Of a DNA stretch of 47,707 nt, positions 16,804-46,209 are shown one piece after another (position 1 is the first letter of the stretch; each line of letters starts with the position of its first letter). Source of the DNA: Mucilaginibacter sp. (lineage in GTDB: Bacteria; Bacteroidota; Bacteroidia; Sphingobacteriales; Sphingobacteriaceae). Where the stretch lies: positions 1-47,707 of the forward strand of contig NZ_JAQBOI010000167.1 in assembly GCF_028288105.1 (NCBI RefSeq), read 5' to 3'. The notes beneath the pieces were generated by a model, which did not search any database, was not told the DNA's origin, and saw only the letters and a program-made list of their open reading frames with translations. Made by a program: the position numbers and the translations under genes.

Positions 16804-17700
16804 CTAATTTATCCCGCCTTTGATCTTTACCGTTCCCACATAATCATTCACATAATCTCGCGGTGCTTTACCCGTAATATTCTTAAATGTATAATTAAAA
16901 TTAGTTATACTGCTAAAGCCGCAGTTATAAGCAACATCGGCAATGTTATTAAGATTGCCGTTTACCAATAATTTGCAGGCCTGGTTTACCCGTACTTTGT
17001 TTACAAAGGCAGTGAAGGTAAGCCGGGTATGTTTTTTAAAATACCTGCAAAAAGCATTTGGCGTTAAATGGGCCTGGCGGGCAACTTCTTCAAGGGTTAA
17101 GGCGCTGCCATAATTGTGCATAATATAGTTGTATACCGATGCAATGCGCATCCCCTCCGGGTCTGTCATAGAATGGGTGTAACTGCCGGCCGATAAGGGT
17201 TGTATATCTGTTAACCCACACATCGCGTTTAGCATCTCAATAAATACCGACATTTGCAAAGCACCCCTGCTGTGCTGAATACGATCAATAAACCCCGAAA
17301 ATACCGACCGCATTTGCATTGGTATTTTAAACCCTGTTTGCCATTGTTCAAAAAAAGAGCGTACGGCCTCCATCTCCGGTAAGTTAAACATGGCAGCCAG
17401 TTTCCCCACCGGGTCAAAGAAAACAGTTAATGCCTCTATCACCAGGGTGCTATCATCATCAAAATATTCGGGGTTGCTTTTAAATAAATGCGGCAGATTT
17501 GCGCCCAGCACATATACTTCGCCGGCCTTAAAAGCATGCATGCTATTCCCTGCAAGCAAAGTACCTTCTCCTCTCTTTATCCAGGTTATTTGCACTTCGG
17601 CGTGGCGGTGCAAATGCGGATAAAAATGCGACATTATCTCTTCCTGCACTATAATAGTTTTGCCATGTGGTACAGGAATGGTAAAGGGAAGTACTTTCAT
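16804..17700 (-). CDS. AraC family transcriptional regulator with cupin domain
   Basis: The 298-residue protein has an N-terminal cupin-like sensor (about 20-110: MSHFYPHLHRHAEVQITWIKRGEGTLLAGN, GEVYVLGANLPH). The C-terminal pair of helix-turn-helix motifs (about 190-290) contains LTLEEVARQAHLTPNAFCRYFKKHT and IADVAYNCGFSSITNFNYTFKNITGKAPRDY, the standard AraC signature. The PHLHRHAE segment is typical of sugar- or small-molecule-responsive members. The adjacent lipoprotein gene is the only obvious partner. AraC-type regulators control hydroxyproline genes in some bacteria, but this one is 4 kb from that cluster and no link is shown. Confidence 0.85.
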   Translation of the reverse strand: MKVLPFTIPVPHGKTIIVQEEIMSHFYPHLHRHAEVQITWIKRGEGTLLAGNSMHAFKAGEVYVLGANLPHLFKSNPEYFDDDSTLVIEALTVFFDPVGKLAAMFNLPEMEAVRSFFEQWQTGFKIPMQMRSVFSGFIDRIQHSRGALQMSVFIEMLNAMCGLTDIQPLSAGSYTHSMTDPEGMRIASVYNYIMHNYGSALTLEEVARQAHLTPNAFCRYFKKHTRLTFTAFVNKVRVNQACKLLVNGNLNNIADVAYNCGFSSITNFNYTFKNITGKAPRDYVNDYVGTVKIKGGIN

Positions 17701-17911: not shown

Positions 17912-18565
17912 ATGGGCGAAGAAGAACTAAATCAACTGGTAAGGGGCTGTTTAAAAGATGACAGGTTGAGTCAGAAGCTGTTGTATAAGGCTTTTTATGG
18001 CTTTGCTATGGGCATCTGTTTACGGTATGCTACAAACAGGTATGAGGCTTCAGAGATCATGAACCAGGGGTTTTATAAAGTCTTCAAAAACTTAACTAAA
18101 TATGATATTACTAAGCCTTTTAAGGCTTGGCTTGGCCGCATTATGGTAAATACATCAATAGATTATTACCGGTCAAACTTAAAAATAGCCTATACAGAAG
18201 AATTGGAAAAGGCCGAACACATTAACGATACAGAGCTTGCAGACAGAAATTTAAATTACAACGAGTTACTGGATATGATAGGTCAGTTACCACGTGCATA
18301 CCGCACCATATTTAACTTATTTGCCATTGAAGGTTACACACACGAGGAAATAGGCGACATGCTGAACATCAGCACAGGCACATCAAAATCAAACTTGCAT
18401 AAGGCAAGAGAAAAATTAAAAATAATGATAGCTAAAAGCAATAAAATGCCGGGCTTAGATAATACAGGCTTAGATAACAGACAACAATCAAATTCAAATA
18501 ATATAGTATCAATAACCCACACAGACTTATCCCCATCTTTTGTGAAAAACATTAGCAAACAATGA
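17912..18565 (+). CDS. ECF-type RNA polymerase sigma factor
   Basis: The 217-residue protein has sigma region 2 (about 25-92: GICLRYATNRYEASEIMNQGFYKVFKNLTKYD, FKAWLGRIMVNTSIDYYR) and region 4 (about 110-170: LLDMIGQLPRAYRTIFNLFAIEGYTHEEIGDMLNISTGTSKSNLHKAREKL). The tail of about 45 residues is Asn/Ser-rich and longer than usual. Its stop overlaps the start of the next gene (ATGA at 18562-18565), which implies translational coupling. It heads a five-gene operon. The partner for regulation is most likely the membrane protein encoded next, although that lacks a recognisable zinc anti-sigma motif. Confidence 0.9.
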   Translation: MGEEELNQLVRGCLKDDRLSQKLLYKAFYGFAMGICLRYATNRYEASEIMNQGFYKVFKNLTKYDITKPFKAWLGRIMVNTSIDYYRSNLKIAYTEELEKAEHINDTELADRNLNYNELLDMIGQLPRAYRTIFNLFAIEGYTHEEIGDMLNISTGTSKSNLHKAREKLKIMIAKSNKMPGLDNTGLDNRQQSNSNNIVSITHTDLSPSFVKNISKQ

Positions 18566-19869
18566 AAGACGAAAAAGAAGATAGTATTGATAAATTGTTT
18601 AGCCAAGGGTTAAATGACCCTGGAAGCAATGCATCGTACAGGGAAGAGGACTGGGACGCGCTGGAGAGCATGCTGGAGGGCAAGAAGCCCAAGGGTATCA
18701 TTTACAGGTTAGCGTATATAATAAGTGGTATTGCCGCGCTGCTATTGCTTGTTCTTGGTTGGTTGTTTTTAAACCCTGCAGAAAAACCTGATAAAACAAC
18801 CCCGCAAGTGGTTAAAACAAAACCGCAGGCAAAACAAGATTCCGGTAAGTACGGCACGCCCGTTCAGCAACTGGCAGATCGCAAAACACAAACGCCTTCG
18901 GCAGGTACCGACAGTGCAAATAACGCACCCGGTAAAAATCGCCCGGGCAAATCGTTCTTTACCTTATCTGCTGATGCGGGCGGCCGTAATACTGCCGGCC
19001 AGATTGCAAAAACAGATGCCGCACCTAAATCGCCGGCCATAAAAACACCATCTGATACCATTATTATCACCGATAAAGCGGTTAACAACATGGCTGTTAA
19101 TAATGCAAAGGTTGATACCATTATTACAGATAAAGCTGCGGCTAACCTGGCAAATAATAATGTGAAGGTTGATACTATTATTGTACCCAAAGCACCTGTA
19201 TTGGCATCGGTAGTGGATGATATTAAGCCGAAGAAAAAGTCAACAAAAACAACAACATCATCAGGTGGCTTTAGGCCGGCATTTGCTTTAAGCTTTATTG
19301 CATCACCGGATATTAACAGCGTGAAAGGGTTTTCGCAAAACAAGGTGGGTACTAATGCCGGGCTTTTGCTAACATTGGGCGTATCAAAAAAATGGAGTAT
19401 ATCTACAGGTGCTGTTTATTCTGATAAACCTTACTTAACTGATTTTGCCAATTACTCCAGCGCTTACAAATTCAATACAAACCCTACAAGTGTAAGTGCA
19501 AGCTGTATTGTATTAGATATCCCTTTAAATGTTGGTTACCAGCTTTATAACAGCGGTGGCAATAAGTTTAGTTTGGGCACTGGCCTTTCGTCATACTTTA
19601 TGCTGCGCGAAAATTACACGTTCAATTATGCAGGCGAGTATCCGGGCGGGCCAACAAGCTATAATATCAGGAACAAAAACAAACATATAATGGGTGTGCT
19701 CAATCTAAACGCGACTTATCAGCGCGAGATAAGCTCAAAATTTGGTGTGGGCATTCAGCCCTATTTTAAAGTACCGCTTACTGGTATTGGTTATGGGCAG
19801 GTTAATCTTAAATCGGCAGGAGTTGCCGTGGCTGTAACGTGGAACATTAATACGAGAATAAAACCTTAG
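18562..19869 (+). CDS. putative sigma-linked protein: cytoplasmic segment, one TM, linker, beta-barrel-like domain
   Basis: The 435-residue protein has a charged N-terminal segment (1-47) containing EEDWDALESMLEGK, which resembles the short sigma-contacting regions of Bacteroidota anti-sigma-like proteins. One strong membrane helix follows (about 48-70), then a Lys/Ala/Pro/Thr-rich linker (about 71-235). The linker carries an imperfect 19-20-residue repeat around VDTII.DKA..N.A.NN (DNA period 60 then 57 bases, about 19054-19190). From about 237 a PorT/OMP-like beta-sheet domain begins (FRPAFALSFIASPDINSVKGF...SISTGAVYSDKPYL) and runs to the end. If that domain enters the outer membrane, the chain would cross the whole envelope. 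Coupling with the sigma gene supports a signalling role, which is my inference. Confidence 0.7.
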   Translation: MKDEKEDSIDKLFSQGLNDPGSNASYREEDWDALESMLEGKKPKGIIYRLAYIISGIAALLLLVLGWLFLNPAEKPDKTTPQVVKTKPQAKQDSGKYGTPVQQLADRKTQTPSAGTDSANNAPGKNRPGKSFFTLSADAGGRNTAGQIAKTDAAPKSPAIKTPSDTIIITDKAVNNMAVNNAKVDTIITDKAAANLANNNVKVDTIIVPKAPVLASVVDDIKPKKKSTKTTTSSGGFRPAFALSFIASPDINSVKGFSQNKVGTNAGLLLTLGVSKKWSISTGAVYSDKPYLTDFANYSSAYKFNTNPTSVSASCIVLDIPLNVGYQLYNSGGNKFSLGTGLSSYFMLRENYTFNYAGEYPGGPTSYNIRNKNKHIMGVLNLNATYQREISSKFGVGIQPYFKVPLTGIGYGQVNLKSAGVAVAVTWNINTRIKP

Positions 19870-19876
19870 TAAAAAC

Positions 19877-20419
19877 ATGAAATATATCGGCTTAATTTTA
19901 CTCGCCTGGTTTAGTATAAATCAGGCGGGACAGGACATCTATGCCTGTAAAAATGCAGTAGTAACCATTTATTCAAAGGCGCCAATAGAAGATATTGATG
20001 CCCGGTCTGACAAGGGAACATCAGTTTTTAATGCCGCGACCGGCGAGCTGGCCTTTAGTGTGCCCATACGATCCTTTAAGTTTGATAAAGCCAGGATGCA
20101 GGAGCACTTTAACGAAAATTATATGGAGAGCGATAAGTATCCGCAGGCAACTTTTAAAGGCAAAATTAACGAGAAACCCGACGTAACTAAAGATGGCACC
20201 TACCCGGTAACCGCTGCCGGCATATTTGAGGTGCATGGCGTAAAACAAACCCGCACAATTGCTGGTAAGCTCACGGTAAACGGTGGCGCTATCAGCCTGT
20301 CGTCGGAGTTTATGGTAGCCTGTAAAGATCATAAAATTGATATCCCTCAACTGGTGTTTCACAACATTGCCGAAACCATAAGGGTGCAAGTAAATGCAAC
20401 ATACACACCTTATAAATAA
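19877..20419 (+). CDS. YceI family lipocalin-like protein
   Basis: The 180-residue protein has an N-terminal signal-like segment (about 1-18) and a YceI beta-barrel. Diagnostic parts are FDKARMQEHFNENYMESDKYPQATFKG (about 70-95), ITAAGIFEVHGVKQTR-like text at about 115-130, and VACKDHKIDIPQLVFHNIAETIRVQV near the end. YceI proteins bind polyisoprenoid lipids such as quinone-like molecules in the periplasm. It lies 7 bp after the preceding gene, in the same operon as a Rieske protein. That makes a redox or quinone connection reasonable, but this is inferred. Confidence 0.88.
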   Translation: MKYIGLILLAWFSINQAGQDIYACKNAVVTIYSKAPIEDIDARSDKGTSVFNAATGELAFSVPIRSFKFDKARMQEHFNENYMESDKYPQATFKGKINEKPDVTKDGTYPVTAAGIFEVHGVKQTRTIAGKLTVNGGAISLSSEFMVACKDHKIDIPQLVFHNIAETIRVQVNATYTPYK

Positions 20420-20441
20420 AAATCCCTAACACAATAATCAT

Positions 20442-21386
20442 ATGAAAAAATCCCTCTTATTCATCGCGCTGTTTTTAACAGCAGGCTTACTAAAAGCCCA
20501 AAACCCAACTACTGATACAACCGCCAGTAGTACCGATGCACTAATGAAAACTCTTAGCGCACCCGAAAAAGGAGAACCGGTTATCGCCACATTTAAGGCC
20601 ACCCGCCTTATACTATCGCAAACCACCGAAACCGTTAAAAAGAAAGAACTGAACTTTTTGGTGATACACCGCTTTGGTGATATTGCAGGTGCGAACGGCG
20701 GCGGTAAAACAATGTGGGGACTTGACAACTCAACAGATATTTACATTGGATTTGAATACGGCCTTACAGATAACCTGAACATTGATTTTGGCCGCAGTAA
20801 GTTTGAATCGTTACTTGAGCTGGGTTTAAAATACAATATACTGCATCAAAAATTAGATAACAGCGTACCCGTGGCCGTTACTTTAATTGGCAAAACAGGT
20901 TTCAAAACCTATCATGCAAACACGCCTATATTTGATAATTATGCCAACCGTTTCTCTTACCTGGCACAGGCTGTTATCGCACGTAAATTTTCATCTGCCT
21001 TATCGTTGCAGGTATCTCCAATGTACCTTATTAACAATGCACCCTATCCCTTTTTGTATGGCAACGAAAAGAAGTTTTTCTCGCTATCTGCCGCAGGTCG
21101 TTTAAAAATCACCAAACGCATGGGTATTGTGCTTGATTATGTTCACCCATTCTCTAACTTTAGAGATAACAATGTTGACCCCAGGTTTTATGACGGACTT
21201 GGTGTAGGCCTCGAAATTGAGACAGGCGGGCACGTGTTCACCATAAACTTTACTAACGCGCAGGCTATATCCGAATTTAATTACCTGAACGATACCGAAT
21301 CAAAATGGAGCAAAGGACAATTCCGTTTAGGTTTTACCATTTCAAGAATATTCGATTTCAACAAAAAACATAAATCAAACTATTAA
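20442..21386 (+). CDS. DUF5777 family outer-membrane beta-barrel protein
   Basis: The 314-residue protein has a signal peptide (cleavage near LKAQ, residue about 20). A barrel-type sequence follows with alternating hydrophobic strands: LNFLVIHRFGDIAGANGG, MWGLDNSTDIYIGFEYGLTDNLNIDFGRSKF, LSLQVSPMYLINNAPYPF, MGIVLDYVHPFSN, GVGLEIETGGHVFTINFTNAQA. The text FLVIHRFGDI..GGG and the overall layout fit DUF5777, a Bacteroidota family without assigned function. It probably sits in the outer membrane. It lies 22 bp downstream of YceI and 22 bp upstream of the Rieske gene. Confidence 0.78.
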   Translation: MKKSLLFIALFLTAGLLKAQNPTTDTTASSTDALMKTLSAPEKGEPVIATFKATRLILSQTTETVKKKELNFLVIHRFGDIAGANGGGKTMWGLDNSTDIYIGFEYGLTDNLNIDFGRSKFESLLELGLKYNILHQKLDNSVPVAVTLIGKTGFKTYHANTPIFDNYANRFSYLAQAVIARKFSSALSLQVSPMYLINNAPYPFLYGNEKKFFSLSAAGRLKITKRMGIVLDYVHPFSNFRDNNVDPRFYDGLGVGLEIETGGHVFTINFTNAQAISEFNYLNDTESKWSKGQFRLGFTISRIFDFNKKHKSNY

Positions 21387-21408
21387 CCCTTATTAACCCC
21401 TACTACAA

Positions 21409-21852
21409 ATGGAAAGACATGAATTTTTAGCAAAATTTGGTATAAGCATGGCTGCGGTATGTGCAGGCTGCAGTTTAATAGGTTGCGGCTCTAAAGGTAA
21501 CGACCCGGCACCGGGCGGCGGCACACCACCTCCTAAACCGGGCAGCGGCAATGTATTCTCTGTTAATTTGGACACCGAGATGCAAAGCATAGGCAGCTCT
21601 AAAATATCAAACGGAATTATACTGGTGCGTTTAGCCGCAGGCGTAGCTGCAAGCGCGTTTACAGCGGTACAGGTTGCCTGCACGCACGAAGGCACAAGCA
21701 TCAACTACAACACCAACCAGGGCATTTTTATATGCCCTAATCATGGCAGCGAGTTTAATACATCGGGTGGGGTAGTTTTAGGGCCGGCAACTTCGGCGCT
21801 TAAAAAATATACGGTAACTGTTGCGGGAAGCACTTTAACAGTTACGGCGTAA
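21409..21852 (+). CDS. Rieske 2Fe-2S protein, probable lipoprotein
   Basis: The 147-residue protein carries both Rieske cluster boxes, Cys91-Thr-His93 (ACTHEG) and Cys109-Pro-Asn-His112 (CPNHGSEF), which bind one 2Fe-2S centre. The N terminus (MERHEFLAKFGISMAAVCAGCSLIGCG) has a hydrophobic stretch with Cys18, Cys21 and Cys26. A lipid anchor at one of these is likely, followed by a Gly/Pro linker (about 30-48) that would let the head move. No cytochrome b or oxidase subunit gene is adjacent. It is the last gene of the sigma operon, which ends at the large palindrome. Confidence 0.9.
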   Translation: MERHEFLAKFGISMAAVCAGCSLIGCGSKGNDPAPGGGTPPPKPGSGNVFSVNLDTEMQSIGSSKISNGIILVRLAAGVAASAFTAVQVACTHEGTSINYNTNQGIFICPNHGSEFNTSGGVVLGPATSALKKYTVTVAGSTLTVTA

Positions 21853-21860
21853 TTAATTTT

Positions 21861-21941
21861 GAATTATTGATTTAGTGAATTAGTGATTGAAAAGCAGCTC
21901 CTGAAAATCAATCAATCACTAATTCACTAAATCAATAATTC
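21861..21941. terminator. 30-bp perfect palindrome between convergent genes
   Basis: Arm 21861-21890 (starts GAATTATTGATTTAGTG) is an exact reverse complement of 21912-21941, with a 21-base loop. It fills the 100-bp space between the stops of the Rieske and FAD-oxidoreductase genes and could terminate both. The stem is AT-rich and lacks a separate T-run, so it may instead be a repeat element. Confidence 0.7.
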
Positions 21942-21952
21942 ACTAATTAGCA

Positions 21953-23200
21953 TTAAGCGTAGCGATCCGGCGAAAACTGGCTGATACCTGTTGATGGTGT
22001 GGCCTGGTTTAGCAGATCGTCTATCAGCTTACCTGTTGCGGGTGCAAGGCTTAATCCCATCATGCCGTGCCCGGTGGCAACAGCCAGGTTTTTGTATTTG
22101 CCCGATAAGCCAATATATGGCAAACCATCCGGCGAACATGGGCGAAAACCAAACCATATATCTTTTTGCCGTGGTAAGGCAGGCGTAAAATCTGGAAAAT
22201 ATTGAGGGATTGATTCCACGATGCCTGCCACCCGGTTCATATTAACCTGCTGGTTTATCTTGCCTATTTCCATGGTACCGCCAAAGCGGATACTGCCGTT
22301 CATAGGGGTTACCGATACCCTTGCCTCGCAAAGCAGCGCTGGGATGGTCATTCGTTTTTGCGGCTCATCTACCATAAAAGAATAACCCTTGCCCGGCATT
22401 AACGGAACGTTTAACCCGGCCAGTTTTGCTATCCCCGGCGACCATGCGCCACCCGCTAACAGGTAAGCATCACCCGTAAAGCTTTTATCATTGCTGATAA
22501 CCTGGGTTATTTGGCCACCGGCATGTTCCATATTGGTAACAGGTGTATTCCTGTGGATCTTAACCCCTGCTTTTTCTAAATGCTTTACCAGCCCGGCTAT
22601 CAATTTATTAGGATACAAATGCGCATCACAGTGGTAATGTACAGCGCCCAACACATCCAGTTCAATATCCGGCTGTAGCTTGCGGCATTCATCGGCAGTA
22701 AGGTACTGCGCGTCGAGGCCTAAATGGGTAGCTTTTTCGGCGGTGTGGCGTTCTTCCTCTTCAAACTTTGGGGTTTTAAAAAGCATTAGTATGCCTTTAT
22801 CGGCAAAGCCGAAATCAAAATCCGCGTCCTGTTCCAAATCCAGGTAAAGTTTTTTGCTGAGCATTGACAGATCCCGCAATGCCCCTGCCGATCGCTCGAC
22901 ATGGTGTTTATTGGCCGCTTTAAGGAATTTCCATCCCCAGCCTATCAGTTCGGGGTTTAAGGACGGCTTTACATAAAACGGACTTTTGCTATTAAACATC
23001 CACCTAATGCCCTGCTCTATCATACCCGGCGCTGCCAGTGGTATAAAATGGCTGGGCACTATCATCCCGGCATTACCGAAGGATGCATTATCGGTAAGGT
23101 CGCCCTGTTCCAGTATCTCCACTTCCCAACCCGATTTGTTCAGGTAATACGCCGAGAACAGCCCTATTATTCCACCACCTATTATTATTGCTTTACTCAT
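21953..23200 (-). CDS. FAD-dependent oxidoreductase, probable D-hydroxyproline oxidase/dehydrogenase
   Basis: The 415-residue DAO-family flavoprotein starts SKAIIIGGGIIGLFSAYYL, a dinucleotide fold (GGGIIG at 8-13), followed by LEQGDLTDNASFGNAGMI as in DadA-type D-amino-acid dehydrogenases. LAGGAWSPGIAKLAG and ATGHGMMGLSLAPATGKLIDDLL near the C terminus complete the family pattern. Next to a 4-hydroxyproline epimerase and a pyrroline-hydroxy-carboxylate deaminase, the expected reaction is oxidation of cis-4-hydroxy-D-proline to 1-pyrroline-4-hydroxy-2-carboxylate, with electrons passed to oxygen or the quinone pool. A generic D-amino-acid dehydrogenase is the alternative. It is the last gene of the minus-strand set. 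Confidence 0.85.
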   Translation of the reverse strand: MSKAIIIGGGIIGLFSAYYLNKSGWEVEILEQGDLTDNASFGNAGMIVPSHFIPLAAPGMIEQGIRWMFNSKSPFYVKPSLNPELIGWGWKFLKAANKHHVERSAGALRDLSMLSKKLYLDLEQDADFDFGFADKGILMLFKTPKFEEEERHTAEKATHLGLDAQYLTADECRKLQPDIELDVLGAVHYHCDAHLYPNKLIAGLVKHLEKAGVKIHRNTPVTNMEHAGGQITQVISNDKSFTGDAYLLAGGAWSPGIAKLAGLNVPLMPGKGYSFMVDEPQKRMTIPALLCEARVSVTPMNGSIRFGGTMEIGKINQQVNMNRVAGIVESIPQYFPDFTPALPRQKDIWFGFRPCSPDGLPYIGLSGKYKNLAVATGHGMMGLSLAPATGKLIDDLLNQATPSTGISQFSPDRYA

Positions 23201-23221
23201 TTGTTATTCTGTTATTCTAAC

Positions 23222-23251
23222 CCGTCATTGCTTCGTACCTCGCAATGACGG
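23222..23251. repeat. CCGTCATTGC / GCAATGACGG palindromic element
   Basis: A perfect 10-bp inverted repeat with a 10-base loop lies in the 77-bp gap between the epimerase and the FAD-oxidoreductase genes. I recall elements of the form GTCATTGCGAGGTACGAAGCAATGAC as widespread short palindromes in bacterial genomes, so it may be a dispersed repeat rather than a gene-specific signal. Confidence 0.6.
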
Positions 23252-23277
23252 TCTTGTTCTATATTCGCTATCGAAAA

Positions 23278-24279
23278 TTATATCACCTGAAACCCAAACG
23301 CGTACGGGTCATCCTCATCATCAATTTTGATGGTGTTGTAGCCGTAAACCTTTGCCCAGCCTTCAATACCGGGTACAATGGCCGGTTTGCCGCCAAGTGT
23401 TACTTCATCCTCTACCGTGCCAATAAACTGACTGCCTATGATACTTTCATGGATAAATTTATCACCCTTCTTTAATAACCCTTTGGCATGCCATTGCGCC
23501 ATACGGGCTGATGTACCTGTACCACATGGTGATCTATCAATCGCTTTATCGCCATAAAAAACAGCGTTGCGGGCGGTTGCCTCCGGCGATATGGTTTTGC
23601 CCGCCCACAAAATATGCGAACAGCCGTTTATGGTTGGGTTTTCGGGGTGGATGAAAGTATATTGCTCATTTATCCTTTGGCGTAAAACTCTGCTCCATGA
23701 TATCAGCTGATCGGCAGTATGGTTTTCCAGTCCTTTAAAGTTTTCCTGCGGATCAACAATGGCGTAGAAATTCCCTCCATAGCTCACATCAATAGTTAAC
23801 ATACCCAGGTCAGGGCATTCTACTTGCAAGTTTTCGGCAGCCAGGTAGCTTGGCACATTAACCAGCTTTACCGACCTCACTTTTTTACCTTCCTGTTTGT
23901 AGGAGATCAAAACCAATCCTGCGGGCGCCTCCATACGCACAATGCCGGGTATTTTTGGCGTGATCAATCCTTCCTCAATAGCGATAGTTATAGTGCCGAT
24001 AGTACCATGCCCGCACATAGGCAGGCAGCCGCTGGTTTCAATGAATAGCACAGCCACATCGTTCTGTGGGTTGTGAGGCGGATACAATATACTACCCGAC
24101 ATCATATCATGCCCCCTTGGTTCAAACATCAAACCTTTACGGATCCAGTCGTATTCTTTTAAAAAATGCTGGCGTTTTTCGCTCATGTTGCTGCCCACCA
24201 AGTTAGGCCCGCCACCGGCAACCAGCCTTACGGGGTTACCGCAGGTATGCGCATCTATGCAGAAGAATGTTTTATTCAT
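23278..24279 (-). CDS. 4-hydroxyproline 2-epimerase (proline racemase family)
   Basis: Taking the ATG at 24279 gives 333 residues, the usual length. A frame reaching 24348 would add 23 residues translated from an intergenic hairpin and is unlikely. The two catalytic cysteines are both present: Cys89 in MCGHGT and Cys252 in DRSPCGTGT. The Cys/Cys pair marks racemases/epimerases, whereas trans-3-hydroxyproline dehydratases have Thr in the second position. Together with neighbouring genes it should convert trans-4-hydroxy-L-proline to cis-4-hydroxy-D-proline, the first step of catabolism, in the cytoplasm without cofactor. Confidence 0.92.
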   Translation of the reverse strand: MNKTFFCIDAHTCGNPVRLVAGGGPNLVGSNMSEKRQHFLKEYDWIRKGLMFEPRGHDMMSGSILYPPHNPQNDVAVLFIETSGCLPMCGHGTIGTITIAIEEGLITPKIPGIVRMEAPAGLVLISYKQEGKKVRSVKLVNVPSYLAAENLQVECPDLGMLTIDVSYGGNFYAIVDPQENFKGLENHTADQLISWSRVLRQRINEQYTFIHPENPTINGCSHILWAGKTISPEATARNAVFYGDKAIDRSPCGTGTSARMAQWHAKGLLKKGDKFIHESIIGSQFIGTVEDEVTLGGKPAIVPGIEGWAKVYGYNTIKIDDEDDPYAFGFQVI

Positions 24280-24287
24280 GTTTTTCA

Positions 24288-24350
24288 AGTTGAAAGTAAA
24301 AAGTTTAAGGTTCAAAGTCACATTCAACTTTAAACCTTGAACTTTCAACT
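24288..24350 (-). other. long imperfect intercistronic hairpin
   Basis: AGTTGAAAGT (24288-24297) pairs with ACTTTCAACT (24341-24350), and AAGGTT.AAAGT (24307-24318) with ACTTT.AACCTT (24327-24338), leaving a small bulge and a short loop. It begins exactly at the dehydrogenase stop codon and ends 8 bases before the epimerase ATG. It therefore takes the place where a normal leader would be. Confidence 0.55.
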
Positions 24351-25920
24351 ATTTACTGTGCTCCCCATTAAACAACCGCCATATGTTTAGCGGGTTGCCG
24401 TCTTTTAATTCATCGGGTAACAGATCGTTATCCCAGTTTTGCCAGCATACCGGGCGCACAAAACGTTTTATAGCGCCTGTACCAACCGATGTAAATCTAC
24501 TATCCGACGTTGCCGGATAAGGGCCGCCATGCTGCATGGCATTACCTACTTCAACACCTGTTGGCGGGCCGTTCAGTATCACCCTGCCTGCCAACTTAGC
24601 CAGTTTATTAGTAATGCTTTTATACTGCGCAAGCTCTTCTTTTTCGGCCATTACGGTGGCGGTTAGTTGCCCGTGTAATGAATCTACCACTTGCTCCAGC
24701 TGCGCAACATCATCCGCTACTATCAGCATAGAATATGGGCCGAAGATCTCTTCCTTAAATTTTTTATCAGCCAAAAAGGCTGATGCGGTTATTTCGGTAA
24801 CTACGGCAACACCCTGGTTTAAATTACCGGTATCAAGCTTATCTGATTTTGCTATTACACTAACGGCGTCATCGGCTATTACACTGCTTGATAATTTGTT
24901 AAAATTGGCACAAATGCCCGGCGTAAGCATGGTTGCTGAATTAACATCAGCTATCGCGATTGCAAGCGCTTTCTTAAATTTTTCTAACGCTTCAGACTTG
25001 ACAGCCAACAGTAAACCCGGCTGTGTACAAAACTGCCCGGCGTTAGTGGTTATAGATGCTGATAACTTCGCCAGTTCTTCCGCACGGTTTTCAAGCGCTT
25101 TGGGTAATAATATAATTGGGTTAACGCTGCCCATTTCGGCAAATACCGGGATAGGCTCATCGCGTTCCCGCGCCATTTTCACCAGGGCCATACCGCCTTT
25201 AAGCGACCCGGTAAAGGTTACTATTTTAGTTTTGGGGTGTTTCACCAATGCTTCGCCAACGGTGTAACCGTCATCAAACAAAAGGGAGAAAACACCCTCG
25301 GGCAGGTTATGCGTTTGAGCGGCCTTTTTAATAGCTTCACCAACCAATGCACTGGTACCCGGATGTGCCGGATGCGCCTTTACCACTACAGGGCAACCCG
25401 CCGCCAAAGCAGAACAGGTATCGCCACCGGCAACAGAAAAAGCCATAGGGAAATTGCTTGCCCCGAACACTACTGCAGGGCCAATTGCGGTCAGCATTTT
25501 ACGGATATCTATACGCGGCAAAGGTGTGCGGTCGGGTATGGCGGTATCAATAACGGCTTCCACCCAACTTCCTTCTTCCAGCAAATTAGCATACATATTT
25601 AGCTGACCGGTTGTACGCCCGCGTTCGCCTTGCAGGCGTTGCGCAGGTAAGCCGCTTTCGGCCATAGCACACTCGATCAGCGTATCGCCAATGGCGTTTA
25701 TCTCATCGGCTATGCTGCGTAAAAAGGCTGCTTTGGTTCTCCCATCCGTTAGGCTATAAGTGGCAAATGCCTTATCGGCCAATTGCATGGTTTTATCAAC
25801 ATCAGCTAAACTGGCGGCATTAAACTCTGCTTCCAGTTCTTTCCCTGTTGCGGGGCTTATCGCTCTAAAGGTTTTGCTACCCTTTATATATTGATAACCA
25901 ATTAAATTTTGTGTTTCCAT
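24349..25920 (-). CDS. aldehyde dehydrogenase, probable alpha-ketoglutarate semialdehyde dehydrogenase
   Basis: The 523-residue protein has the full set of aldehyde dehydrogenase residues: Asn156 in FGASNFPMAF, Lys181 in VVVKAHPAHPGTS, Glu262 in FAEMGSVNP and the nucleophile Cys298 in TTNAGQFCTQPG. KAHPAHPGTS and AEMGSVNPI are typical of the ketoglutarate-semialdehyde branch, which usually uses NADP. In this cluster it would oxidise 2-oxoglutarate semialdehyde to 2-oxoglutarate, the final step of hydroxyproline breakdown, feeding the TCA cycle. It is preceded by a 238-bp gap with a palindromic GTTCAC element, so it may have its own regulated promoter. Confidence 0.9.
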   Translation of the reverse strand: METQNLIGYQYIKGSKTFRAISPATGKELEAEFNAASLADVDKTMQLADKAFATYSLTDGRTKAAFLRSIADEINAIGDTLIECAMAESGLPAQRLQGERGRTTGQLNMYANLLEEGSWVEAVIDTAIPDRTPLPRIDIRKMLTAIGPAVVFGASNFPMAFSVAGGDTCSALAAGCPVVVKAHPAHPGTSALVGEAIKKAAQTHNLPEGVFSLLFDDGYTVGEALVKHPKTKIVTFTGSLKGGMALVKMARERDEPIPVFAEMGSVNPIILLPKALENRAEELAKLSASITTNAGQFCTQPGLLLAVKSEALEKFKKALAIAIADVNSATMLTPGICANFNKLSSSVIADDAVSVIAKSDKLDTGNLNQGVAVVTEITASAFLADKKFKEEIFGPYSMLIVADDVAQLEQVVDSLHGQLTATVMAEKEELAQYKSITNKLAKLAGRVILNGPPTGVEVGNAMQHGGPYPATSDSRFTSVGTGAIKRFVRPVCWQNWDNDLLPDELKDGNPLNIWRLFNGEHSK

Positions 25921-25988
25921 AGTATTTTTATATTGTCAAGCCTTCGACAAGCGCAGACTTACAATTTAATGTTCGGTGCTTGTTATGG

Positions 25989-26027
25989 CAAAAGTGTTCA
26001 CGTTCACTGCCGTGAACGCCTGTGAAC
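25989..26027 (-). promoter_or_regulatory. GTTCAC/GTGAAC operator-like array
   Basis: GTTCAC occurs at 25996-26001 and 26002-26007, and its inverse GTGAAC at 26012-26017 and 26022-26027. The inner pair forms a perfect palindrome around TGCC. On the minus strand a weak -7-like box (CACTTTTG, 25989-25996) directly follows. The layout suits a transcription factor acting on the dehydrogenase promoter. No binding protein can be named. Confidence 0.45.
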
Positions 26028-26126
26028 ATAAATAAATTATTAATAATCAGTAATTTAAAAATAAGCTACTGACAAAACATCGCCACCATTCATAAAGATA
26101 ATGTCATTTCACATTTATTAGGTCGC

Positions 26127-26143
26127 TGATTTTAAAAATCAGA
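26127..26143. other. short hairpin after the deaminase gene
   Basis: CTGATTTT-A-AAAATCAG is a near-perfect 17-base palindrome 16 bp past the deaminase stop. It may be a weak terminator between the deaminase and dehydrogenase genes. No long T-run follows. Confidence 0.35.
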
Positions 26144-26158
26144 CTGACAATTTAAGTA

Positions 26159-27106
26159 TTAGCTAACCCCTGTCACATCAACCTCTGCCTCTACGCCCCA
26201 GCTACCTGCAGGCAGTTCCGGGCGGTTTTTAACCGCGTGGTTTATAATACCCAAAACCACATCGCGCTCTTTACCCGTAATTTTTAAACGCGGCAGGCGT
26301 ACGGTTTCTGTCCCTAAACCGGTAACAGATTCGGCCAGTTTAATGTATTGCACCAGTTTTGGGTGGATATCCAGCTCCAGCACCGGTAAAAACCAGCGGT
26401 ATATTTTAAGCGCCTCTTGCATACGCCCTTCTTTAGCCAAACGGAAGATGGCAACAGTTTCTTTAGGAAAGGCATCAACCAAACCGGCTACCCAGCCATC
26501 AGCACCCATAAACAGGCTTTCCAGCGCCAGCGTATCTACTCCGCAAAGTATAGCAAACCTATCGCCAAAACGGTTGATCATACGGGTCACATTACTCACA
26601 TCGCGGGTTGATTCTTTAACCGCCTGGATATTCTTGTAGGCAGATAGTTGCTCAAACATATCCAGTGTAACCTCTATTTTATAATCGTAAGGGTTGTTGT
26701 AGATCATTATGGGCAGTTTAGTGCTTTTGGCCACATCTGTAAAATATTTTACAGTTTCCTCCACATCGGCCTTGTAGCGCAAAGGTGGCAACATCATTAA
26801 TCCGTCGGCGCCATATTTTTCGGCATTGGCAGCACAAAGCAAGGCTGCTTTTGTAGTTTGCTCCGCGATGTTCAGCACCACGTAAGCACGCTTGGCAACC
26901 ACTTTTACGGTGTGTTTCAACAACTCTATCTTTTCGTCGTCGGTTAAAACGCTTGCTTCACCTAACGATCCACCGATGATAATACCGCTTGCACCGGCTT
27001 CTATTTGTGCCTCAATGTTTTTATCAAAGGCATCAAAATCAAATTCATCGTTTTCGGTAAACTTTGTTGTTACCGCAGGGAATACCCCTTTCCATTGTAC
27101 GCTCAT
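26159..27106 (-). CDS. 1-pyrroline-4-hydroxy-2-carboxylate deaminase (DapA/DHDPS superfamily)
   Basis: The 315-residue protein is a class I aldolase-type TIM barrel. Lys164 in IQAVKEST is the expected Schiff-base lysine, Tyr136 in MIYNNPYDY the conserved tyrosine, and GGSLGEASVLT (45-55) the substrate-carboxylate loop. The superfamily also holds dihydrodipicolinate synthase and N-acetylneuraminate lyase. The adjacent epimerase, FAD oxidase and semialdehyde dehydrogenase point to the hydroxyproline enzyme, which turns 1-pyrroline-4-hydroxy-2-carboxylate into 2-oxoglutarate semialdehyde plus ammonia. It lies 74 bp downstream of the GH127 gene on the same strand. Confidence 0.88.
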   Translation of the reverse strand: MSVQWKGVFPAVTTKFTENDEFDFDAFDKNIEAQIEAGASGIIIGGSLGEASVLTDDEKIELLKHTVKVVAKRAYVVLNIAEQTTKAALLCAANAEKYGADGLMMLPPLRYKADVEETVKYFTDVAKSTKLPIMIYNNPYDYKIEVTLDMFEQLSAYKNIQAVKESTRDVSNVTRMINRFGDRFAILCGVDTLALESLFMGADGWVAGLVDAFPKETVAIFRLAKEGRMQEALKIYRWFLPVLELDIHPKLVQYIKLAESVTGLGTETVRLPRLKITGKERDVVLGIINHAVKNRPELPAGSWGVEAEVDVTGVS

Positions 27107-27129
27107 AAAAAATATTTAATGGTATAAGT

Positions 27130-27168
27130 ATGTTATTGCGAGAACCCTAACACCGCCCGCGATAACAT
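27130..27168. other. hairpin between the GH127 and deaminase genes
   Basis: ATGTTATTGCG (27130-27140) pairs with CGCGATAACAT (27158-27168), 11 bp with one wobble and a 17-base loop. It lies in the 74-bp gap. With no T-run it is more likely a messenger processing or stability element than a terminator. Confidence 0.45.
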
Positions 27169-27180
27169 GTTGTTAAATAA

Positions 27181-29187
27181 TTATTGGGTTAACAGATCTA
27201 CATATTTTACCTGCTGCGGAAACCATACCGTCATTTCACCCTTGCCCCGGTTGGCCCACGAATAGTACGGAATAGCAGTCAAGGTTTTATTAGCCGTGCT
27301 GATGTTTTGCCCGTTGCTATCAACTTTCACCCCTCTTACTTCGGATTTTAAAACGGTTACGCCATTTAGCAGATCAGCTTTATATTCGGATGTACAAGTT
27401 GTGGTTTTAGGAACAATGATATTGGCAGCCTTGCCGTCATTATCCTTCCATTCGGCGCAGTACATAATGGGGCCACGCTGTAGGGCAATTTTGCCGCCAT
27501 CTTCCGGTAACTTATCATTAGCAATAACACGCTGCACATCCATCGGCAGGTTCATTTCTACCTTATCGCCTTTTTTCCATTTTTTGCTGATCACCGCGTA
27601 GCCGTTCTGCATTTGGTAATCAACCGGTTTGCCATTCAATTTTATAACTACCTTTTGGGTGGATGCCTGCTGATAAGCATACAGATCTGACGGGATAGCC
27701 TTGTTCTGCGCCCAACCCGGGATACGGACCTTCAGGTTCATATCCATGCTGCTTGCCGGGTTAACGGTAAATGCCAGCGCGCCATCCCAGGGGTAATTAT
27801 TTTGCTGGGTTATCTGTAAAGTTTTGTTGTTTACTTTAATATCCCCGGTGCCGCTGATAAACAGGTTCACAAAAACATCGTTGCCGTTTTGCGCGTAAAT
27901 ATAACCGGGAATTGATGGCATTAGCCTAACCACATTAGTTGGGCAGCACGAACAGGTGAACCAACCCGCACGCTCACGCTCAATATCCGGGTGGTTAAAT
28001 CCATCGTGTATCTGCATAGCGTTGGTGTAGAAGAACGATTTGCCATCCAACCCCACGCCCGAAATTAAACCGTTATACAGGGTTTTCTCCAGCACATCAA
28101 TGTATTTTGAATCGCCATGCAGTAAAAACATACGCTGGTTCCAGAATACATTGCCAATGGCCGCGCAGGTTTCGTTATAGGCAGTGGCGTTTGGCAATTC
28201 GTAGTTAGCGCCAAAACGTTCGCCATCGCCAACAGCACCTATGCTGCCTTGCACATACATCTTTTTACCCACCATGTTATCCCAGATCTTATCAATGGCG
28301 GCCAAATATTCTTTATCGCCGGTTAAGGCGGCAACATCTGCCATACCCGAGTACAGGTACATGGCGCGCACAGCATGCCCCTCGGCTTCGTCCTGCTCAA
28401 TAACAGGTTTATCATCCTGCCAGTAAACGCCGTTCTCGTAAACACTTTTGCTCTTTTTGTTATATTCTTTGTGGCCGCGTTCATCAATAAAAAACTTAGC
28501 CAGGTCCAGGTATTCTTTTTTACCGGTAATGCGGTACAGTTTCACCAAACCCATCTCTACCACCTGATGCCCGGGCGCCACATGCCTTTTGCCCGGCCCA
28601 AAGGTACGGACCAGCAGATCAGCATTTTTAAGGGCTATATTGAGGAAGTTGCGCTTACCGGTAGCCATAAAGTGCGCGGCGGCACCTTCATACATATGGC
28701 CGGCGTTGTATAATTCGTGGCTATTTTCCTGTTCTTTTACCCAACGCTCGGTGCCCAACCACGGACCAACATGCGCCGGGTCGATAGTGCGGGCGGTGTA
28801 CAGGTAGCCGTCGGGTTCTTGCGCGCGGCCTATTATGGTGATCATTGAATCTACATAATGATCCAGCTTTTTATCGGGGTGCAGGGCAAGTGAATAGGAT
28901 GCCCCTTCTATGGTTTTATAAATATCGGTATCGTCAAACGGGTAGGTGGTACAGAACTTGCCTTTGCGCTCGGCGGCCATCTGGAAGTTTTTTACCCTGC
29001 CTGTACTCTCGCAACGCTCAAATGAAGCCGGGATAGTTACCGTGCGGTTGGTTTCGATGCGGGATGTCCAGAAATGGTCGCTTAATTTCACGTTGGTGAA
29101 CGCAACCGGTTGTATGGGATAATCCTGCTTTTGCGCGAGGGCGGAAAGACTGCAACTAATGAAAACTATTAAACAAAGCTTTTTCAT
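27181..29187 (-). CDS. GH127 beta-L-arabinofuranosidase
   Basis: The 668-residue secreted enzyme has a signal peptide cleaved near ALAQ (residue about 19). The GH127 zinc-thiolate site is intact: Glu339 and Cys341 in YNETCAAIG, and Cys412, Cys414 and Cys415 in FTCSCCPTN. These line up with Glu338, Cys340, Cys415, Cys417 and Cys418 of Bifidobacterium HypBA1 as I remember them, with Cys414 as nucleophile. The fold is an (alpha/alpha)6 barrel plus beta sandwiches. Known substrates are beta-L-arabinofuranosides, including the arabino-oligosaccharides attached to hydroxyproline in extensins. The neighbouring hydroxyproline pathway fits that substrate. A TACTTTTG -7 box (29216-29223) lies about 29 bases upstream. 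Confidence 0.9.
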   Translation of the reverse strand: MKKLCLIVFISCSLSALAQKQDYPIQPVAFTNVKLSDHFWTSRIETNRTVTIPASFERCESTGRVKNFQMAAERKGKFCTTYPFDDTDIYKTIEGASYSLALHPDKKLDHYVDSMITIIGRAQEPDGYLYTARTIDPAHVGPWLGTERWVKEQENSHELYNAGHMYEGAAAHFMATGKRNFLNIALKNADLLVRTFGPGKRHVAPGHQVVEMGLVKLYRITGKKEYLDLAKFFIDERGHKEYNKKSKSVYENGVYWQDDKPVIEQDEAEGHAVRAMYLYSGMADVAALTGDKEYLAAIDKIWDNMVGKKMYVQGSIGAVGDGERFGANYELPNATAYNETCAAIGNVFWNQRMFLLHGDSKYIDVLEKTLYNGLISGVGLDGKSFFYTNAMQIHDGFNHPDIERERAGWFTCSCCPTNVVRLMPSIPGYIYAQNGNDVFVNLFISGTGDIKVNNKTLQITQQNNYPWDGALAFTVNPASSMDMNLKVRIPGWAQNKAIPSDLYAYQQASTQKVVIKLNGKPVDYQMQNGYAVISKKWKKGDKVEMNLPMDVQRVIANDKLPEDGGKIALQRGPIMYCAEWKDNDGKAANIIVPKTTTCTSEYKADLLNGVTVLKSEVRGVKVDSNGQNISTANKTLTAIPYYSWANRGKGEMTVWFPQQVKYVDLLTQ

Positions 29188-29503
29188 GGATGAATGGTTG
29201 AAATTTTAAGCTAATCAAAAGTACAGGAAAATGTACCGATTGTTAATGGATTTTTACCTGATATTACCCATATATTACCCTAATTTACTACATATTGGCT
29301 GGCATAATGGTAATATACCGTATATCTCTTTTTGCTTCTTGCCAAAATGACGTAATCTCATTGATAAGCAAGTTAAACCCTAAATTATGTTTATATAAAA
29401 TTATCACCCTCATTATCAGTATAATATACTTATTAATAGTACTATGTATTGCATAATACTATATTAAACATATATCTTTACAGAAATTAAAACAATTACT
29501 AAG
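29188..29503. other. AT-rich divergent promoter region
   Basis: These 316 bp separate the GH127 gene (left, minus) from a small secreted-protein gene (right, plus). They contain the minus-strand box TACTTTTG (29216-29223) and, near the right edge, a plus-strand near-match TATCTTTA about 30 bases before the ATG. No reading frame or strong hairpin is seen in the middle. Confidence 0.6.
29216..29223 (-). promoter_or_regulatory. TACTTTTG -7 box for GH127
   Basis: Reads TACTTTTG on the minus strand, an exact TAnnTTTG match, 28 bases upstream of the GH127 ATG. A clear -33 element was not found. Confidence 0.45.
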
Positions 29504-31073: not shown

Positions 31074-33422
31074 ATGAAACTACTTACACTATTATATATC
31101 CTGCTGTGTTTTGCGCCTGCCCTGTGTTTTGGCCAAAGCAACAACCTGCATGGAACTGTTACCGATGCCCGCACCCACGAAGCTGTACCGGGTGTACTGA
31201 TCAGCAATGCTGATGATGGCAAAACCCTTACTACTACCAATGCCAAAGGCAAATTTGAATTAGAAACAACTGGCATTAAAAACCTGCGTTTTAGCATGAT
31301 AGGTTTTAATGATAAGATCTATCTGCTTACAGGCACATCTTCCATAGAGATAGCAATGGAACCTTCCACTATCGATCTGCAGCAGGTGGTGATATCTGCC
31401 AGCAGGGAGCGGCAGGCCCGGCAGGATGCACCTATCGCCATCAGCAAAATAAATGCTACCCAGATCCATGACACCAAAGCCACTGCACTTTACCAATTAC
31501 TAAACAAGGTAACCGGCGTTTACATGGTAGATCTGGGGAACGAGCAGCATACCATGGCCATTCGCCAACCTATTACCTATAACGCGCTGTATTTATATAT
31601 GGAAGATGGTTTACCTATTCGCCCTACGGGGATCTTTAACCACAACTCGCTTTACGAGATCAATATGAGCGGTGTGCGGGATATAGAAGTGATAAAAGGG
31701 CCTGCCTCTTCGCTTTATGGCAGTAATGCTATTGGCGGTGCAATTAACTTTATCACACAGGGGCCACCAGCCGGCTATGCAGGCAATGTATCTGTACAGG
31801 GCGATAATTATCACTACCGTAGGGTTGATGCCGATGGCGGTTTCAGCGCGGGCAAATTTGGTTTATACGTAGGTGGTTATATAGCCAAACAGCGTGATGG
31901 CTGGCAGGACTATACCGACTTTGACAAATACTCGGGCAATTTTAAAACCACCTACGATTTTGATGCCGCTACGAGATTAACCACATCTGTAGCTTATAAT
32001 TATCTGAATACCCAAACACCCGGCAGCCTGGATAGCGCCAAATTTTATAGCCGCACCTATGGTGCAAATCAGCGTTTTACCTATCGTAAGGTTAAAGCCT
32101 TTAGGGCGAATACCAAATTGGAGCATGCCTGGAACGATAAAAGCAGCAGCTTTCTTACCCTATTCTACCGCAACAACTCTACCGCGCAGCTGCCAAGTTA
32201 TTATATAGCCGATGTGAGAGATAACGCCGGTAATTATGTAAGTTCTAACGGGCAGGAAAACGACCAGAGCTTTCACAGCCTTGGTTTGCTGGCGCAGCAC
32301 AGGCAGGATCTGGACTTTCTGCATTCCCGGTTGATTGTTGGTATTTATGCTGATAACAGCCCAAGTTCTTATTATGCTAAGTTTCTGGATATCCAAAAGG
32401 ATGTAACCAACAACTTCTATACAGGCTATACCAATACCGGTAATTATATTGATAACTACCGCATTAAGCTGTTTAACACTGCCGCTTATGCCCAGTACGA
32501 GATAAAACCTGCCGAGCCTTTGCGCATTGTAATGGGCTTACGGTACGATCGCATCCATTACAACTTTACCAACGGTATCGCCCCCGGTAACACCAAGTAC
32601 AAGCAGCAGGAAATAAACGATTTTAACATTGTCGCCCCCAAATTAGGGCTGACCTATAATTTTGGTAACAATAAAGGTTTGTACGCCAATTACAGCGTAG
32701 GCTTTCAGCCACCCGAAACAGGCGACTTGTATAACGCACGCCAGTTAACCCCGTTAAAGCAAGCCACATTTAATAATTACGAAGCAGGTGGCTGGTTCAC
32801 CGCTCTAAATAAAAAAATGTACGTAGAAGTGACCTTTTACGATCTGGAAGGCCGCAACGAGATCATTAATCAATTACTGCCGGATAATACCACCCAAAAC
32901 CAAAACGCGGGCGCTACCCGCCACCGTGGTATAGAGTATTCTGTAGCTTATGCGCCGGTGAGCGAGCTAAGCTTTAGGTTTAGCGGCACCAATGCCAAAC
33001 ATACTTATGTTGATTATAGCGAGGTAGCCACCAACTTTAGCACAGGGGCAAGCACCGTTACGGTTTACAATGGCAACCGTATGAATAATGCACCAAGCTG
33101 GATAGCCAACTCCGAGCTTACCTACAAACCGGCATACCTTAACGGTTTTAGGATAGCGGGCGAATGGCAGCACATCAACTCGTACTTTACCAATCCGGCA
33201 AATACCAAAACCTATGCAGGCTATGATATTTTCAACTTCCGTACCGGTTTTGATATAAAAAGTGGTGTACTAAAAGGAGCGGGTATTTGGTTCAACGTAC
33301 TAAATGTTGCCAATAAGCTTTACGCTACAACGGTAACCAGCAACCAGTACGGCGATACTTATAATGCGGCCCCGCCACGGGTGTATACTTTGGGCATCAG
33401 TTATTCATTTGCAAAACATTAA
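31074..33422 (+). CDS. TonB-dependent outer-membrane receptor
   Basis: The 782-residue protein has a signal peptide (cleavage near CFGQ, about 20), a carboxypeptidase-regulatory-like domain (about 24-100: LHGTVTDARTHEAVPGVLISNAD), a TonB-receptor plug (about 110-225: VVISASRERQARQDAPIAISKI, VRDIEVIKGPASSLYGSNAIGGAINF) and a 22-strand barrel with RYDRIHYNFTNG, YANYSVGFQPPETGDLYNA and a final strand ending YTLGISYSFAKH. The pattern is that of siderophore or metal receptors. The neighbours (Cys-rich protein, PepSY, heavy-metal-binding domain) favour a copper or similar metal-chelate ligand over sugar. It is followed after 2 bp by the PepSY gene. Confidence 0.92.
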   Translation: MKLLTLLYILLCFAPALCFGQSNNLHGTVTDARTHEAVPGVLISNADDGKTLTTTNAKGKFELETTGIKNLRFSMIGFNDKIYLLTGTSSIEIAMEPSTIDLQQVVISASRERQARQDAPIAISKINATQIHDTKATALYQLLNKVTGVYMVDLGNEQHTMAIRQPITYNALYLYMEDGLPIRPTGIFNHNSLYEINMSGVRDIEVIKGPASSLYGSNAIGGAINFITQGPPAGYAGNVSVQGDNYHYRRVDADGGFSAGKFGLYVGGYIAKQRDGWQDYTDFDKYSGNFKTTYDFDAATRLTTSVAYNYLNTQTPGSLDSAKFYSRTYGANQRFTYRKVKAFRANTKLEHAWNDKSSSFLTLFYRNNSTAQLPSYYIADVRDNAGNYVSSNGQENDQSFHSLGLLAQHRQDLDFLHSRLIVGIYADNSPSSYYAKFLDIQKDVTNNFYTGYTNTGNYIDNYRIKLFNTAAYAQYEIKPAEPLRIVMGLRYDRIHYNFTNGIAPGNTKYKQQEINDFNIVAPKLGLTYNFGNNKGLYANYSVGFQPPETGDLYNARQLTPLKQATFNNYEAGGWFTALNKKMYVEVTFYDLEGRNEIINQLLPDNTTQNQNAGATRHRGIEYSVAYAPVSELSFRFSGTNAKHTYVDYSEVATNFSTGASTVTVYNGNRMNNAPSWIANSELTYKPAYLNGFRIAGEWQHINSYFTNPANTKTYAGYDIFNFRTGFDIKSGVLKGAGIWFNVLNVANKLYATTVTSNQYGDTYNAAPPRVYTLGISYSFAKH

Positions 33423-40722: not shown

Positions 40723-40733
40723 GTATCTGTTTA

Positions 40734-42002: not shown

Positions 42003-42008
42003 ATCTCG

Positions 42009-43784: not shown

Positions 43785-43789
43785 TTGGT

Positions 43790-45010: not shown

Positions 45011-45016
45011 CTCCTG

Positions 45017-46201: not shown

Positions 46202-46209
46202 TTTTATCT

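Follow-up and report, generated by a model that had tools for sequence, protein, structure and literature searches.

Why does a gene for a probable beta-L-arabinofuranosidase of family GH127 stand directly beside a complete set of genes for the breakdown of hydroxyproline (Hyp)? The question is raised by positions 21953-29187 of a 47,707-nucleotide stretch of Mucilaginibacter sp. DNA (assembly GCF_028288105.1, contig NZ_JAQBOI010000167.1, here called the window), in which five intact genes, all on the minus strand, follow one another in the list of open reading frames in the order GH127, DHDPS-family, aldehyde dehydrogenase, HypE and DAO-type dehydrogenase. The answer that we favor, and hold to be reasonably probable, is that they form a small locus devoted to the use of plant Hyp-rich glycoproteins as food, that is, extensins and/or arabinogalactan proteins, both of which are common components of plant walls. 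The five genes are as follows.

27181..29187, minus strand: GH127 protein, probable beta-L-arabinofuranosidase, 668 aa (PF07944/PF20736/PF20737; alignments with 6ex6 and HypBA1)
26159..27106, minus strand: DHDPS-family protein, 315 aa (PF00701)
24349..25920, minus strand: aldehyde dehydrogenase, 523 aa, putative 2-oxoglutarate semialdehyde dehydrogenase (PF00171)
23278..24279, minus strand: 4-hydroxyproline 2-epimerase (HypE), 333 aa (NF010578, Cys89/Cys252)
21953..23200, minus strand: DAO-type FAD protein, 415 aa, putative D-hydroxyproline dehydrogenase (PF01266)

A Pfam scan together with synteny places the four enzyme families that lead from Hyp to 2-oxoglutarate on one strand, and the list of open reading frames and Pfam thus confirm the earlier note, which had described GH127 beside a full Hyp pathway in five minus-strand genes. 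The gaps between the genes, taken from the coordinates, are 74, 238, 69 (to the HypE ATG) and 77 bp. The HypE open reading frame spans 23278-24348 (356 aa), and the match to the HypE model sets in at residue 24, so that translation probably starts from the ATG at 24279 and gives a protein of 333 aa. HypE scores 600 bits against the 4-hydroxyproline epimerase model NF010578, for which the curated cut-off is 376, and among the matches listed it is the only one of the five proteins that reaches a curated NCBIfam cut-off, the comparison for two of the proteins covering the best 25 of 41 and the best 25 of 34 families. It carries the Cys89/Cys252 pair at the motif positions, and such a pair marks a racemase/epimerase and not a dehydratase, as stated in a passage of PMC4364671. 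The DHDPS-family protein falls below the dapA cut-off (172.6 of 206.15 bits), the nearest solved relatives of the aldehyde dehydrogenase are 3v4c (432.8 bits) and 1eyy (417.4 bits), and the DAO protein scores 239 bits against PF01266 and 260.7 of 383 bits against a D-amino acid dehydrogenase model. The steps of these three proteins would follow from family and from synteny and pathway context. Their DHDPS-fold Lys and Tyr, aldehyde dehydrogenase Cys and Glu, and DAO dinucleotide-binding glycines align with those of solved relatives, and we take the roles of these residues to be the customary ones.

The GH127 protein matches the catalytic, middle and C-terminal domains of its family with 373.7, 86.9 and 85.2 bits, against Pfam cut-offs of 24.9, 24.2 and 23.7. 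Its closest solved relatives are 6ex6 (737 bits), 4qjy (486), HypBA1 (384) and 5mqo (315); 6ex6 is presumably BT3674. Residues E323, E339, C341, C414 and C415 align with the acid/base Glu, the zinc Glu and the Cys residues of HypBA1, for whose individual roles (acid/base, zinc ligand, Cys nucleophile) we follow the usual assignment. A Cys3-Glu zinc site is common to GH127 and GH146, according to PMC10850190. The active-site residues of all five proteins thus align with solved relatives or motif positions, and the statement in the earlier note that the catalytic residues are intact holds. The N-terminus, MKKLCLIVFISCSLSALAQ, looks signal-like when judged by eye, and the protein is probably exported. 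On its alignments the enzyme is not a plain counterpart of HypBA1, because 6ex6 (737 bits) is closer than HypBA1 (384). The name aceric acid hydrolase (NF049879), the sole NCBIfam match, was rejected at half its cut-off (479.4 of 950 bits).

Does the pairing recur? The family sample comprises 151 genomes, of which 52 hold HypE and 83 hold PF07944, with 150 PF07944 matches listed and more unlisted; as a control we used the amino-acid gene family PF00221, with 94 matches in 75 of the same genomes. A further, weak HypE match in G029 (35% identical) was excluded from the 52, and a PF07944 gene in G085 whose open reading frame runs off the contig end was included in the linkage count. A listed PF07944 match lies within 10 kb of 16 of the 52 HypE genes and of none of the 94 PF00221 genes, whereas 0.71 HypE genomes would be expected from the density of PF07944 if genomes are taken as 5.1 Mb. 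The GH127-HypE pairing exceeds chance. Fisher's test gives p = 1.2e-8 for HypE against the control, uncorrected for kinship; 8 of the 16 linked cases share the GH127 group of the window and belong to one genus, and in the remaining 8 the PF07944 gene is of a different type. Region maps show two further family loci (G053, G122) with weaker GH146-like genes, the GH146 label being given here to PF07944 proteins whose nearest solved chain is 5opj, presumably BT0349. A scan of named genomes, non-random because the best 80 were kept out of 591 confirmed HypE relatives, was combined with 51 family regions and, after removal of 3 duplicates and exclusion of the window, gave 128 distinct HypE loci. By BLAST, 38 of them hold a GH127- or GH146-type gene (16 of 48 in the family, 22 of 80 in the named genomes), and since several named loci are short contigs, all neighbor counts are lower bounds. 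A more even sample came from a class-wide search at E 1e-100, which returned 40 of 395 genomes, 11 of them inside the family. The pairing is frequent in the family and is also met in Chitinophagaceae and in some others, without being a general trait of the class. The pairing claimed in the earlier note stands in the genus, and it recurs in other Bacteroidota with other GH127 lineages and with GH146-type genes.

A tree of the GH127 genes places the window gene in a clade of 13 with support of 100/100, 12 members of which are linked to HypE. The other HypE-linked GH127 genes fall in two further lineages, which makes three in all; the linked label requires 7 changes on the tree, 6 of them forced, and GH146-type genes are linked to HypE separately from GH127. 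A GH27 alpha-galactosidase adjoins GH127 in 9 of the 13 clade members and not in the other four, the window among them, which suggests that GH27 was lost repeatedly and that the operon of the window looks like a trimmed version. GH27 lies inside the operon in G036, G014, G101 and G116 and in named loci including Mucilaginibacter terrigena and M. gilvus (L130, L131). Elsewhere, glycoside hydrolase genes stand between the pathway genes themselves, in the orders HypE>GH127>DAO (L145), HypE>permease>GH146>DAO (L147), HypE>GH51>GH127>351 aa>GH146>DAO (L195) and HypE>GH146>DAO (L211). Because related bacteria repeatedly show GH127 with Hyp genes, the pairing is probably the sign of a common way to feed on glycoproteins of the plant cell wall.

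What else accompanies HypE in these relatives? All neighboring proteins were clustered without preselection of families, and most representatives of the groups present in at least 4 regions were scanned. Beyond the four pathway genes and an AraC-type regulator, the groups met most often are DUF885, amino-acid permease, aminopeptidase P, S9 peptidase, GH146-type, DUF5695, GH127 and M1 peptidase. Counted by BLAST over the 128 HypE loci, homologs of the DAO, DHDPS-family and aldehyde dehydrogenase genes occur in 117, 114 and 106, DUF885 in 39, amino-acid permease in 31, SusC-type receptors in 27 (a label assigned by eye, with representatives confirmed as TonB-dependent receptors), aminopeptidase P in 24, GH146-type genes in 23, two groups of S9 peptidases in 22 and 13, DUF5695 in 20, M1 peptidase in 18, two groups of GH127 in 14 and 6, and GH27 in 12. 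A GH2-type gene, possibly for a beta-galactosidase or beta-glucuronidase, is found in 5 loci, and GH51 and GH97 in two or three each; the remaining groups are housekeeping genes such as UvrB and BshC. Some of the recurrent peptidase families handle proline bonds. Peptidases, enzyme families for beta-L-arabinofuranose (Araf), alpha-galactose and alpha-L-Araf, and Hyp catabolism would together fit a Hyp-rich glycoprotein.

The regulator that recurs in this census has a counterpart in the window.

16804..17700, minus strand: AraC-type regulator, 298 aa, candidate cluster regulator (PF12833)

In G095, in G014 and in further relatives an AraC homolog comes directly after DAO, and such homologs are present in 73 of the 128 HypE loci. 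The AraC gene of the window is separated from DAO by a gene block at 17912-21852, counterparts of which are found at the corresponding position in both G036 and L130; the block encodes an outer-membrane beta-barrel protein, a YceI-like protein, a DUF5777 barrel and a Rieske protein. A 302-aa protein lacking a Pfam match (L071:2278-3186) adjoins AraC in several relatives, and its window counterpart lies at 15113-16021.

Of the 151 family genomes, 33 carry DUF5695 (PF18951; for example L087:3480-6239), and 32 of these 33 have HypE as well; the exception is G055, whose copy is broken by stops. For distances we counted 32 DUF5695 places, excluding G055 and three weak second copies and joining two pieces in G150. 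A DUF5695 gene lies within 10 kb of 17 of the 52 HypE genes and within 50 kb of 25, against 0 of 94 control genes at both distances, and genome size may account for part of the co-occurrence of DUF5695 and HypE across genomes. When a profile was built from 15 members, it found one significant chain, BACCELL_00875 (E 1e-8), in three collinear stretches that are each weak alone; a single member as query gave no significant match. The same chain is ranked first by Foldseek with a DUF5695 model (E 1.7e-17, TM 0.27-0.35) and by VIA (Z 11.7, rmsd 10.0 over 424 residues, followed by unrelated rows at about Z 10). Because the model is weak, with a pLDDT of only 53.7, the fold match alone is insufficient; because profile and model both find BACCELL_00875, DUF5695 is probably a distant relative of PL27. 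According to PMC8377490, BACCELL_00875 belongs to PL27 and sets rhamnose free from gum arabic. We see an even chance that many Bacteroidota possess a dedicated system for whole Hyp-rich glycoproteins under one AraC regulon, comprising peptidases, an amino-acid permease, the Hyp pathway and the glycan-removing enzymes GH127, GH146, GH27 and DUF5695, the last as a new family of PL27-like lyases or glycosidases; the window would be a reduced form of this system.

We propose that the locus would work as follows. The GH127 enzyme, whose family and residues are clear from the alignments, would be exported and remove beta-linked L-arabinofuranose, an uncommon form of arabinose, from the glycans. Peptidases encoded elsewhere, of the kinds that relatives carry within the cluster, would cut the bared Hyp-rich peptides, and Hyp or its peptides would enter the cell. 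There, HypE, the putative DAO-type dehydrogenase, the putative DHDPS-family deaminase and the aldehyde dehydrogenase would convert Hyp to 2-oxoglutarate. The arabinose would probably be routed through L-arabinose isomerase, because the genome has such a gene on contig C190, and the AraC-type regulator, operon-adjacent in relatives, would probably switch the operon on.

Upstream of the GH127 gene there is one short candidate for a control element.

29216..29223, minus strand: TACTTTTG, resembling the Bacteroidetes -7 element TANNTTTG; possible, weak GH127 promoter (sequence match)

The consensus TANNTTTG is the one that we take to hold for Bacteroidetes, and no match to a -33 element was seen. 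Between the DAO gene and a convergent Rieske-type gene, at 21860-21942, stands a 31-bp inverted repeat that is perfect and encloses a loop of 21 nt, and an imperfect one of 31 bp (81%) lies at 24288-24350, between the aldehyde dehydrogenase and HypE genes. The HypE-DAO gap holds a hairpin at 23222-23251 with arms CCGTCATTGC/GCAATGACGG, which in our estimation resembles a repeated extragenic palindrome. The 238-bp gap contains an operator-like palindrome, TTCACGTTCACtgccGTGAAC, at 25997-26017; as a conserved operator it was rejected, the pattern occurring in the window only among the fetched loci of at least 15 kb.

Elsewhere in the window, a TonB-dependent receptor gene at 31074-33422, on the opposite strand, best matches siderophore-receptor models (148.4 of 223.5 bits). 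The minus-strand genes at 39601-47679 encode GH26, GH27, a 591-aa protein, a GlcNAc-2-epimerase-type protein, GH130 and a sodium:solute symporter, and the group looks like a galactomannan-use cluster; the 591-aa protein (42009-43784) matches no Pfam family at E 0.001. As a displaced member of the operon, the GH27 gene at 40734-42002 was rejected: it sits with GH26, GH130 and the GlcNAc-2-epimerase-type gene, its product shares 42% identity with the catalytic part of operon-type GH27, and the mannan cluster fits better. The product of 14012-15040 is a fatty acid desaturase that carries a sphingolipid delta-4 desaturase domain and has close homologs in the HypE regions L070 and L071 of relatives.

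Several observations weigh against a glycoprotein-feeding locus. The GH127 enzyme itself is not tied to Hyp, because its orthologs (at least 61% identity), present in 18 family genomes, are unlinked in 10, some of them among arabinan-type genes. Two of these 10 share a contig with HypE at 33 and 68 kb and two are in genomes lacking HypE, and the 8 with HypE within 7 kb all belong to one genus; on the condition that the earlier note set for its own refutation, GH127 elsewhere and among unrelated neighbors in most relatives, the outcome is mixed, 8 of 18 being linked and 10 unlinked. Orthologs adjoin GH43 and GH51 in G025, GH51 in G066, and a SusD gene with a TonB-dependent receptor in G031, and in the thirteenth clade member, G089, GH27 adjoins GH127 with no Hyp genes within about 9 kb. 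Outside the family, a GH127- or GH146-type gene is present in 3 of 29 sampled HypE loci (L211, L225, L230) and none was seen in the other 26, three of the 29 stretches being shortened and the HypE open reading frame of L210 uncalled there. The genome itself holds further PF07944 genes, one of them about 5 kb from the L-arabinose isomerase gene on C190. When the distance is widened to 20 kb, 18 of 52 HypE genes and 1 of 94 control genes (G101, 19.4 kb) have a listed PF07944 match. The Pfam scan found no SusC/SusD pair among the five open reading frames of 21953-29187 and no peptidase or permease in the operon, operon-type GH27 and DUF5695 were not found in the genome, which is 88.5% complete, and the 238-bp gap and the hairpin repeats in the remaining gaps make a single transcript over the five genes less certain. 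The ortholog neighborhoods, the G089 pair, the additional PF07944 genes and the scarcity outside the family all favor an account in which GH127 serves arabinan or pectin use and adjoins the Hyp operon by local history, the operon itself using free Hyp or collagen. We consider this unlikely in view of the recurrence of the pairing with several GH127 lineages and with GH146-type genes, the contrast of 16 of 52 with 0 of 94 within 10 kb, and the glycoside hydrolase genes inserted between pathway genes in other families; moreover, collagen as the Hyp source leaves the beta-arabinofuranosidases unexplained.

The oxidative route of L-arabinose breakdown also ends in 2-oxoglutarate semialdehyde and uses DHDPS and aldehyde dehydrogenase families, so that the two enzymes could in principle form a sugar pathway with GH127, whose gene directly precedes theirs; the GH127 region of G025 indeed has an aldehyde dehydrogenase 48% identical to that of the window. 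This seems very improbable to us, since among the 128 HypE loci homologs of the DHDPS-family protein and the aldehyde dehydrogenase are found by BLAST in 114 and 106, against 38 for GH127- or GH146-type genes, and the genome has an L-arabinose isomerase whereas the operon has no further arabinose-pathway enzyme. Feeding on Hyp-rich glycoproteins is accordingly the reading that we retain, and the idea that one locus handles both the sugar and the amino acid is well supported by comparison. The comparison does not bear out the naming of extensin in particular, extensin being one of two glycoprotein classes that fit and 6ex6 (737 bits) being closer to the enzyme than HypBA1 (384); the sequence does not separate extensin from arabinogalactan protein. 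A narrower form, to which we assign slightly less than an even chance, is that arabinogalactan protein is the substrate and not extensin, in which case GH127 would strip terminal beta-L-Araf off type II arabinogalactan and the exposed Hyp-rich core would feed the pathway. It would agree with 6ex6 (if that is BT3674) as the closest solved relative, with the recurrence near HypE of DUF5695, probably distant kin of a PL27 enzyme acting on gum arabic, and with the GH2-type gene in 5 of 128 loci. No galactanase or rhamnosidase family was seen among the scanned neighbor representatives, a few small groups being unscanned, and GH27, GH51 and GH146 fit extensin too, the glycans of which are Ser-linked alpha-galactose and Hyp-linked arabinose.

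To our knowledge, bacterial breakdown of extensins and arabinogalactan proteins is known mainly for the sugars. If feeding on Hyp-rich glycoproteins is the correct reading, a locus joining deglycosylation to Hyp catabolism would show how the protein part is used as well, hypE would be a marker for finding such glycoprotein systems, the uncharacterised DUF5695 would gain a testable role, and the locus would point to new enzymes that deglycosylate plant glycoproteins. A pairing of GH127 with the Hyp pathway appears in no title or abstract opening of the open-licence literature searched, most subscription literature lying outside the search, and the sole paper there to name DUF5695 concerns fungal regulators.

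The use of arabinogalactan protein by Bacteroides with the GH127 enzyme BT3674, which is presumably the closest solved relative 6ex6, reportedly depends on a SusC/SusD-based system, whereas the operon of the window has no such pair and a SusC-like receptor with a SusD-like partner occurs in 11 of the 128 HypE loci. BT3674 acts with galactanases in the breakdown of larch arabinogalactan, according to PMC10850190. The HypBA1/HypBA2/HypAA cluster of Bifidobacterium longum (GH127, GH121 and GH43), which acts on Hyp-linked beta-L-arabino-oligosaccharides, shares with the window the GH127 family and its active-site residues; it differs in that the window has an amino-acid pathway attached and no transporter of the Bifidobacterium kind in its operon, and in that its GH127 protein matches HypBA1 with 384 bits, as against 737 for 6ex6. 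HypBA1-type enzymes act on beta-L-arabinofuranose of Hyp-rich glycoproteins (PMC10850190 and PMC7263609), and Araf-beta1-Hyp of such glycoproteins is the substrate of a GH146 enzyme from Bifidobacterium (PMC10850190). In Latescibacteria, use of extensin has been predicted from GH127, the relevant passages of PMC4454575 mentioning no Hyp catabolic pathway, and the main text of a neighborhood study of the racemase/epimerase superfamily (PMC4113996) contains no words starting with "arabin", "glycosid" or "extensin". The same clustered enzyme families make up the bacterial trans-4-hydroxy-L-proline pathway, as described in part in PMC4364671 and otherwise as we understand it. The locus described here differs from that pathway in that GH127 is joined to it, and its relatives add genes for GH27, GH146-type enzymes, DUF5695 and peptidases.

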